Shown: positions 1,740 through 32,010 of the stretch, one piece after another | Position numbering within the stretch: position 1 is the first letter of the stretch | Layout of the letters: the number at the start of each line of letters is the position of its first letter | Source of the DNA: an uncultured Bacilli bacterium | GTDB taxonomy: Bacteria > Bacillota_I > Bacilli_A > RF39 > UBA660 | Reading direction: 5' to 3' | Assembly (NCBI GenBank): GCA_944332535.1 | Contig: CALVKE010000054.1 | Span: 1 to 32,010, forward strand | Length of the DNA: 32,010 nucleotides | Made by a program: the position numbers and the translations under genes | The notes under the pieces: model-generated | Databases searched by the model: none | Told to the model about the DNA's origin: nothing | The model's input: only the letters and a program-made list of their open reading frames with translations

Positions 1740-1849
1740 CTAGAAAAATTTATTTTTTCTTCTTTTTTGTTGCTATTTTATACTTTTATATGTTATTTTA
1801 TAGGTAAAGGGAATATTCGTTTAGAAAATAAGAATTATGAGGTGAATTT

Positions 1850-4800
1850 ATGAAGTATACCATTGGATTAGATTTGGGAATTGACAATGTTGGTTGGGCG
1901 ATTTTTAATAACGATAACCAGCGACTTGAAAAAAGTGGAGTTTTGCGGTTTAAATCTTCTAGTGATGCAAGTGATAGAAGGCAATTTCGTTCTGTAAAAC
2001 GACTTCGAAAACGTCGCCTTCGTCGAGTAGAAGATGCTTTACAGAAGTTAAAAGAAAAGAATTTTCCCTCTACTGTTACAGTTGATTCGGAACTATTATT
2101 AAAAAGAGTAAGTGCTTTAAAACATCAAGTTAGTAAACAAGATATTACTAATATTATTGCGTTCTTTATGAAAAAAAGGGGATATATTCCGATTTCAGAA
2201 GAAAACGAAGCGGTTATCGTCGATTTAGAAGGACTTTATCCTTGTCAGTATTATTACCAATATTGGAAAGAACATGGAAAATATCGTGGGAAAAATCTTT
2301 TGGTTGGAACCAAAGAGTTACGAAGAGAATTAAATGATATTCTTTGTTTTCAAGCTCAATATTATCCAGAGCTAACGCAAGAATGGATGAATGCAATTTT
2401 GCTTATTTTTGACCGAAGGAGAAAATTCTATGAAGGTCCTGGTGGCGTTCATCAAATTACTCCTTATGGTCGGTTTCATACTACTGAAGAAATAGAAGAA
2501 TATCAGAGGATGAAGCAGAAACATCCAAATTATGAATGTTATCTTTTTGAAAGATTAATCGGAACTTGTAAGATTGCTTTAGGAGAACGTTGTGCTTCCC
2601 GTGCTAATTTGGAAGCAGAAAAGTACAATACGATTAACGATTGGGTTAATTTACGTTTTACGGATATTTCTAATGCTATTCAAAAAGATGTTTATTTTAA
2701 GCGACAGGATTCCTATTATCGTTTAACAACGGAGGGACTGGAATTTGTATTATCTTATTGTATGAAAAATGCGAAAGCAACTTATACGAACGTACTAAAA
2801 ACATTAGGAATTTCTAAAGATACTGTTTGTGGAGCACCACTTACCAAAACAAAAAAAATAAAGATTTATACCATGGATTTTTACCGTGAAGTTCTAAAAT
2901 TAATAGAGTCTACAGGATTTACTCCAATTTGGTTTATCGATCCAGATTCTTATAATACTGTAATGGATGTATTAAATGTTGTTCCTACTGTGGAAGATGC
3001 TCTTTCTTTAATAGAGGCAAAATTAGATTTTTCTTTGTCAGATGAGGAGGAAGATTTTCTTCGATCACTATATCCGAAGTATGGTGCTTATGAAGGGCAT
3101 CACGCGTTATCTGTTTCTGTTTTAAAACGTGCTAACGAGGATATGATAAAAAATACCTTGAATTTCATGCAAGTTCGTCGAAAATTTGATTATGATAAAG
3201 ATGCGAGAGAGTACTTTCATAAAAATTATAGCAATACTGGAAAATTATTAATGAGCAGGAGATATGTTGATACTATTATTTCTTCTCCACAAGTTAAAAA
3301 GACCTTGCGGCAAGCTATTTTAATTATTAACGAAATTATTTGTGAAAAGGGATGTTTGCCAGCCAATATTGTAATAGAGTCTACAAAAGAACTAAATAGT
3401 GATGATAAAAAGGCTGCGATTGAGGAAAGTCAGAGAAAGCAAGAACATCTAAGAAAAGAAGCGAGCGAACTGTTAATTTCTCTTTTTGGAGAAGAGAGTG
3501 TTACTGAAGATAATATTCAAAAAGTCATGCTTTATCAAGAAACGGATGGACTTTGCTATTATTGTGGTAAGAAACATCTTAGATTAGACGATTTACTTCG
3601 TCGCTCTTTTGATGTCGATCATATTTTGCCATACTCCAAGTCATATGATAACTCTTTTGATAATTTGCTCTTAGTATGTCACGATTGTAATGAGAAAAAA
3701 GGAAATCATACACCATATTATTATTTGAAAGATCAGTTTGAAGAGTTTCAAAAACGAGTTCAAGCTAATAAGAAAATGTCTTCTTTAAAAAAAGAACATT
3801 TGTTGTTTCGAGATGATATTAGTCGTTATGAGTTGAAATTTTTTAATCGTAATTTGAGAGATACTGCTTATGCTACTTCCGAGTTGATTTCTCAAATTCA
3901 GTTGTTCAACTATTATTTAGAAGGAGATGATCATGATCCTATTCAAACTTTGTCCGTTTCTGGAAGTATTACTAGCACGATTCGAAGACGCCATGCCATC
4001 GATAAAGATCGTAAGAAGGGACCTCAACATCATGCTCAAGATGCTGCCATCCTTTCCATCTTATCCAATATTCCTTTAGGAAAAGCTTTATTAAAAAGTC
4101 AAAATGATCCTAAATTTTATGCACCGAATCGTAAAGAAGAACGAGAACGTGATTTAGAAGAGATACGAAATTTATTAAATAGGGTGAATATTTCCGGTTA
4201 CGAAAAAGAAGTAATTCGAATAGATACTGAAAATCAATTCCGCATGGCGAATCAAGTTTATAAGAATCCACAGAAATCTTTGTCCCATCAAAACATATAT
4301 AAAGTAATTGAAAAAGAGGATAAATCTTATAAAATAGATCAGATCGATAACATTTATACATTAGACTTTTCAAAAGATACCGTTTGTAATCAATTGGACC
4401 ATTTATTTTCTGAGGAAGATTATTCTCTTACTCTTTTGTGTCAAGATAAGAATAAAAATTTGTTTTACTATTTAAAAGAAATTTTTGAGCGGTATCGTAT
4501 TGGAGATGCGAATCCTTTTTTAGAGTACTGTCTTGAAAAGTGGGGAATTACTGCGGATCAATTCGAAGTAGAAAAACACGGAATTCGTACTCCTTCAAAA
4601 AACGGAAACGGTCCAATCGTTCAGAAATTACGTTACTATTCTTCGATAAATACACCATTCTTTTTGGAAAAGAAAAATATTTCCAAAAAAGAAAATACGA
4701 AAATTGCATTAGATAATTTGGCACAAATGTGCACGAAAGTTTATTTTGATCGAGATAAGCAGCAGTTTCTGTTTTTACCTATACCTTCTGTTTGTGTCGA

Positions 4801-31606: not shown

Positions 31607-31635
31607 TTGAAAAGAGAAGGAAAAGAGATTATAAT
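31607..31635 (+). promoter_or_regulatory. promoter of the exported-protein gene at the window end
   Basis: TTGAAA (31607-31612), 17 bases, TATAAT (31630-31635). The predicted start is about 31642. The first start codon downstream is ATG 31666, behind AAGGGAAG. Confidence 0.85.
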
Positions 31636-31665
31636 GGAGGTATAAAATAGAAGGGAAGTAAGAAG

Positions 31666-31710
31666 ATGTATCGTAAGTTAAAAAGAATCTGGGGGGGGGG
31701 GTCAAACTAA
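31666..31710 (+). other. upstream start and leader ORF cut short by a G11 tract
   Basis: ATG 31666 with AAGGGAAG upstream opens a frame M-Y-R-K-L-K-R-I-W-G-G-G-S-N that stops at TAA 31708-31710 with the present 11 Gs. With 9 or 12 Gs the frame would instead read W-G-G-(G)-V-K-L-T-Q-P-S and run straight into the next ORF at 31746. It may be the true N-terminus in an off state, a short leader peptide, or the result of a miscounted homopolymer. Confidence 0.6.
31691..31701 (+). repeat. G11 homopolymer tract
   Basis: Eleven consecutive Gs in a strongly A/T-rich region, 35 bases after the predicted transcript and inside a translatable leader frame. G runs of this length are hot spots of slipped-strand length change. 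I saw no other G run of similar length in the window. Confidence 0.97.
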
Positions 31711-31745
31711 CCCAACCTTCTAAAACAAAGGAAAGGAAGAGAAAA

Positions 31746-32010
31746 ATGAGCCGGGAAGAAAAGAAGCAAGTTGCTAAAATTGCTGTGTTTTTGACGAGTA
31801 TTTTTGTTATCTTTTTGAGTGTTTCCTATGCGTTTATTCATGTTACTTTAACTGGAACGAGGCGACATATTATTCGTGCGGGGAATTTACGAGTGGAATT
31901 AGAAGAAGAAAATGCTATAATACTAGAGAATGCATTTCCTATGTATGATGAAGTAGGAATGATTCAAGAACCTTTTGTTTTTCATGTAGATAACCTGGAT
32001 GAATTACGAG
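31746..32010 (+). CDS. exported protein with SipW/TasA-like N-terminus, partial
   Basis: The gene is cut by the window end; 88 residues are visible. M-S-R-E-E-K-K then a hydrophobic segment (about 10-28), then T-L-T-G-T-R-R-H-I-I-R-A-G-N-L-R-V-E-L-E. The arrangement of a long signal segment followed by an A-G-x-L-x-V/L block recalls TasA/CalY proteins with SipW-type signal peptides, which form fibres or coat the cell surface. AAGGAAG before ATG 31746 supports an internal start; the frame also extends upstream through the G tract if that has 9 or 12 Gs. Function inferred from the N-terminus only. Confidence 0.7.
   Translation, partial: MSREEKKQVAKIAVFLTSIFVIFLSVSYAFIHVTLTGTRRHIIRAGNLRVELEEENAIILENAFPMYDEVGMIQEPFVFHVDNLDELR

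Follow-up and report, generated by a model that had tools for sequence, protein, structure and literature searches.

A G11 tract ahead of an exported-protein gene as a probable slipped-strand switch in an uncultured Bacilli bacterium

An uncultured Bacilli bacterium carries eleven consecutive Gs close to the start of a gene for an exported protein. This run is very likely a slipped-strand contingency switch, assembled in an OFF or low state, although neither a change in its length nor an effect on expression has been observed at this locus. The run lies in the window, that is, the whole 32,010-nucleotide stretch of DNA analyzed, which is the complete contig C54 of a 1.12 Mb assembly of 96 contigs (G000), and very probably it belongs to a set of fourteen G-run switches in this genome. 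It fulfils two of the expectations for a translational contingency locus: the homopolymer is far beyond chance and is set where its length shifts the frame at a gene start, and related loci are open or closed according to tract length. The idea of a phase switch had been put forward from the sequence of the window alone, and the genome-wide and family-wide context presented here supports it strongly.

The elements of the locus are listed in Table 1. The leader ATG at 31666 sits behind AGAAGGGAAGTAAGAAG in the window sequence. With the assembled eleven Gs the frame that it opens is closed by the stop TAA 31708-31710 after 14 residues; with twelve Gs it gives at least 115 residues and remains open to the contig end. 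An open frame, at 9 or 12 Gs, puts 27 residues ahead of M31746, and the leader peptide at 12 Gs is MYRKLKRIW-GGG-VKLTQPSKTKERKRK, with one Gly fewer at 9 Gs. The anatomy described in the sequence-only reading, namely the tract, ATG 31666, the early stop, and the opening at 9 or 12 Gs into the protein beginning at 31746, was confirmed. That reading had also called the promoter perfect, which holds for TATAAT and for the 17-bp spacing but is slightly too strong for TTGAAA, one base off TTGACA. The C-terminus of the window gene lies beyond the contig end, and hence outside all results on the window protein.

Table 1. Coordinates of the window locus and of a diversity-generating retroelement (DGR) of the same genome; positions refer to the window unless another contig is named.
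Feature	Position	Strand	Remarks
-35 element TTGAAA	31607..31612	+	17 bp from perfect TATAAT; TTGNCA at the matching place in sister leaders
-10 element TATAAT	31630..31635	+	kept in 4/5 sister leaders
Leader-start ribosome-binding region, inside AGAAGGGAAGTAAGAAG	31648..31662	+	near-invariant among sister leaders; anti-SD duplex -6.0 kcal/mol
27-codon leader	31666..31745	+	leader shared with L019 and L020 (in frame, G10) and with L163 (fixed in frame)
G11 tract, proposed slippage switch	31691-31701	+	eight codons after ATG 31666
Exported/surface protein, cut by contig end	31746..32010	+	own ATG 31746 with SD AAGGAAG
DGR parts: VR, MutS-domain accessory, TR, reverse transcriptase	L130 (G000:C75) 97-243, 784-1170, 1170-1313, 1777-2721		also L036/L131 (G001:C82)

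Relatives of the window gene encode a membrane segment at the N-terminus and a beta-rich domain of some 150-170 residues. The suggested likeness to TasA was not confirmed and has only weak support. No TasA/camelysin profile in Pfam or NCBIfam matched the window fragment or its full-length relatives, and the fold predicted after the signal segment (pLDDT 73) gave as its best relevant match an archaeal bundling pilin (7ueg), a weak one with a prob of 1.00 but a TM of only 0.34.

Long G-runs are in great excess in this genome. Expected counts were taken from Markov models of order 1-3 built from the window; the assembly contains 14 runs of at least nine Gs, against 0.11-0.56 expected, and nine of at least ten, against 0.02-0.11. 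Within the window itself, the longest other G or C run is 6. Assembled runs mostly have 9-12 Gs, and only one of exactly 8 is present. Furthermore, every one of the 14 tracts was observed either a few codons past an ATG or in a -35/-10 promoter spacer: eleven are of the coding type, 5-11 codons after the ATG, and three (L011, L012, L017) are of the promoter type, between TTGACA and TAGAAT. Six of the 14 lie no more than 400 bp from a contig end, where 0.96 would be expected (p=2e-4), as is to be expected when copies recur or tract length varies. The products of the genes under tract control are large and exported; they have a membrane segment at the N-terminus, and their domains are Ig-like (Glucodextran_B), List_Bact_rpt, Gly-rich or FGE/lectin-like. 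A known riboswitch was ruled out as an explanation of the tracts by the absence of any Rfam match in the ten tract-bearing loci searched. At L015 (G000:C51), three consecutive pilin-like genes (GFTLIELLAVIVILGVIMAIAIPAMTGYI) occupy positions 1350-2959, near a tract-bearing surface gene.

In the coding-type loci the gene is opened by one of the three G phases. As assembled, L019 (1009 aa, G10), L020 (712 aa, G10), L027 (622 aa, G9) and L031 are open; the window, L010, L014, L016, L018 and L022 are closed. A neighboring G count opens closed loci, giving 614 aa in L010 (one G fewer), at least 527 in L014 and at least 710 in L022. Tract length was also found to differ between near-identical copies: L015 and L022 have G10 and G9, respectively, with 49 bp upstream and 58 bp downstream of the run identical, and in genus G013 near-identical promoters carry runs of 9, 9, 10, 11, 11, 13, 14 and 14 Gs. 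This variation is from copy to copy. With one genome per species and no reads, none could be shown within a population, so that the rate of slippage, its reversibility in a population and its effect on expression are inferred.

Two further copies bear on where translation begins. L163 (G000:C49, minus strand near the contig start) carries the window's leader, but its run is interrupted (GGGAGGGGG) and the leader is fixed in frame; to judge from its sequence it is a natural locked-ON copy. In L020 the internal ATG has gone through an in-frame gap, and the gene is still read from the leader. Together these copies argue that, in the window's leader family, translation genuinely starts at the leader ATG.

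The closed frame, however, may not silence the window gene, because the SD of its internal ATG 31746 is as good as that of ATG 31666 (anti-SD duplex energies of -6.2 and -6.0 kcal/mol, respectively); a basal short form is not excluded, and remains an inference. It is conceivable, if rather unlikely, that translation of the protein always begins at ATG 31746 and that the tract only adds a 27-residue basic extension or sets the level. The equal SD energies favor this, as does the alignment of M31746 with the ordinary start of the promoter-switched relatives L025, L033 and L023, an alignment that makes the tract-bearing 27-codon leader look like an added module; the internal ATG is, moreover, retained in the window, L013, L019 and L163. 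Against it, L020 has lost this ATG, and L010, L014, L016, L018, L021 and L022 likewise lack a usable one between the tract and the membrane segment; the shared mechanism can therefore do without it. Since most sister loci are in this position, their general mode would be translational ON/OFF, and the choice between two N-termini that had been suggested remains possible only where the internal ATG is kept.

The switch reading gains from the wider family. The nearest relative of the source bacterium is apparently a rabbit-associated bacterium. The sister genome G001 has its runs mostly in promoter spacers and only a few in coding sequence (L027, L031, L037). Runs of G10 or longer were found in 129 of 288 family genomes, with up to 55 per genome; genomes of other families in a class-wide sample have none or few, with a maximum of 8. 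The pattern TTGACA-N0-12-G9 was observed in about 70 relatives' genomes (71/291, in 50/150 genera), and a reversed control pattern in 2 genomes. The G-run recurs at several positions inside the -35/-10 spacer across about 50 genera, and spacers of the promoter type measure 15-23 bp, mostly 18-20, that is, around and above the 17-bp optimum. Downstream of promoter-type tracts in G001 (L026, L028, L030, L035) a 5' UTR segment, about TTTACAGTGATNNTANTTCGTGATA, is repeated; it has no Rfam match.

G-runs can slip in expression as well as in replication. A tract that does not switch, with the gene expressed despite its frame through ribosomal or transcriptional slippage, or with the leader a dead relic, can draw on this and on the lack of population data to set against it. 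We consider it improbable: most family tracts fall in promoter spacers, where only DNA length matters and not frame, and the leader frame is preserved in the interrupted-tract copy L163. Homopolymer counts in metagenome assemblies may be off by one. Even so, an artefact of poly-G read tails or a miscounted homopolymer, to which the closeness of several tracts to contig ends might point, is very hard to maintain. Across independently assembled genomes of many genera, most tracts have coherent, conserved sequence to either side and lie on the sense strand of promoters or start regions; a miscount by one G would flip the state read from the assembly, ON or OFF, and leave the conclusion standing.

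The site itself is not conserved, other genes being found after rny in other genera; in G017 (L072/L133), whose rny is 72% identical, rny is followed by a G9 promoter tract and a different exported protein. Nothing pointed to these elements being phage-borne: in the viral contigs searched, the leader was absent, and so was the one fixed form of the promoter-tract pattern that was looked for. Loss of mismatch repair as an aid to slippage was rejected: G000 has MutS, and a MutS_I match over the cut-off was obtained in about 94-95 of 98 genomes, so that MutS is kept in nearly all relatives. In G060, G9/G10 runs occur in two apparent acetyltransferase-type coding regions (L047, L051); if of that type, these genes would be phase-variable surface-modifying enzymes.

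Under the contingency-switch reading, slippage during replication would add or remove Gs in the tract. At 9 or 12 Gs (0 mod 3), translation from ATG 31666 would cross the 27 leader codons and go on into an exported surface protein anchored in the membrane, the ON state; at 10, 11 or 13 Gs, the leader would stop after 14-18 codons, the OFF state. Instead of full OFF, expression might be low if ribosomes re-initiate at ATG 31746, which lies about 36 nt beyond the stop reached with G11. Across the genome-wide set, the mutable G-run would act in two designs, as a translational switch in the first codons or as a promoter switch in the -35/-10 spacer.

The survey of mismatch repair also found small MutS-domain proteins next to reverse transcriptases, and with them two DGRs, G000:C75 and G001:C82, in which 17 of 18 and 15 of 16 TR/VR mismatches, respectively, are at TR adenines. 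A reverse transcriptase adjoins both (RVT_1 E about 1e-17). G001:C82 (L036) carries the anatomy of both systems on one gene: a G9 promoter tract and a 628-residue target ending in the VR, together with the TR, the MutS-domain accessory and the reverse transcriptase. G000 and G001 together have 14 complete genes under tract control; by eye, a VR-like C-terminal domain was counted in 9 of these (L010, L017, L024, L027, L028, L029, L030, L035 and L036, and not L019, L020, L025, L032 or L033). Among complete relatives sharing the window's N-terminal domain, L017 and L030 have it and L020 and L033 do not. Three unswitched G000 paralogs (L162, the second gene of L163, and L164) have it as well. A cis TR with clean adenine bias was found, among the VR-like tract-controlled genes, only for L036. 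Remote VR-like copies show many base differences from the nearest TR; TR adenines are over-represented among the differences in L017 (18/36), L028 (8/16) and L024b (8/18), and L029 has no such excess (14/36, against 12 the other way). Judged by these differences, the remote copies are as might be expected for older, trans targets.

We lean, without much assurance, towards a two-layer diversification in which G-run slippage picks, from a large repertoire, the anchored proteins to be displayed and DGRs rewrite the binding faces of many of them. Across the family the two systems overlap without being coupled, the association of DGR reverse transcriptase with G10 tracts being not significant (13/22 vs 28/76, Fisher p=0.086). 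In L129 (G000:C23), a G8 run at 763-770 lies near the end of a MutS_I-domain ORF that stops at 108 aa and overlaps a continuing frame at 726-944, with a reverse transcriptase downstream at 1637-2395; this is possibly a phase-variable or decayed DGR accessory.

An uncultured, small-genome family of Bacilli thus carries G-runs on a large scale and in two interchangeable designs, often, in the window's genus, on genes that also look like DGR targets. Our literature search found no paper on phase variation in RF39, and a limited search found none joining G-run switching and DGRs. If switching in vivo is true, existing metagenome reads could reveal which surface proteins are turned on or off in the host, and whether random switching and targeted hypermutation act jointly to counter phage or host recognition.

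Phase variation by G-runs is best known in proteobacterial pathogens, and porA and opc are switches in which repeat length sets promoter spacing. Another such switch is nadA (PMC2791445). As in these three, repeat length here alters the spacing of promoter elements and so transcription; unlike them, the G-run lies inside the -35/-10 spacer, at several positions, across about 50 genera within a single family. The poly-G/C contingency loci known from Campylobacter, Helicobacter and Neisseria (PMC4965091, PMC2823697, PMC5084427) resemble the present set in the large number and similar length of their homopolymer tracts, in being of both translational and transcriptional type, and in acting on surface targets, but they are proteobacterial and their targets include glycan-modifying enzymes, whereas the targets here are for the most part large exported proteins, of which many have a variable lectin-like C-terminus. 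In Bifidobacterium breve, sortase-pilus expression depends on replication slippage in G-tracts (PMC9187656), and there too intragenic tract length decides a surface structure of a gut commensal at several loci per genome; B. breve, however, is a high-GC actinobacterium and the genes are pilus genes, whereas here a small AT-rich uncultured Bacilli lineage has a leader cassette common to different surface proteins, plus promoter-spacer tracts. The DGRs resemble known ones in their reverse transcriptase, MutS-domain accessory, adenine-specific TR/VR pair and FGE/C-type-lectin-like target domain, but known targets are not described as repeat-switched in the literature found, whereas these are driven by G-run promoters or leaders. 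The individual mechanisms are known in other bacteria (PMC9187656, PMC4965091, PMC2791445); the new points are the leader cassette, the scale on which this lineage uses G-runs, and their overlap with DGR targets.
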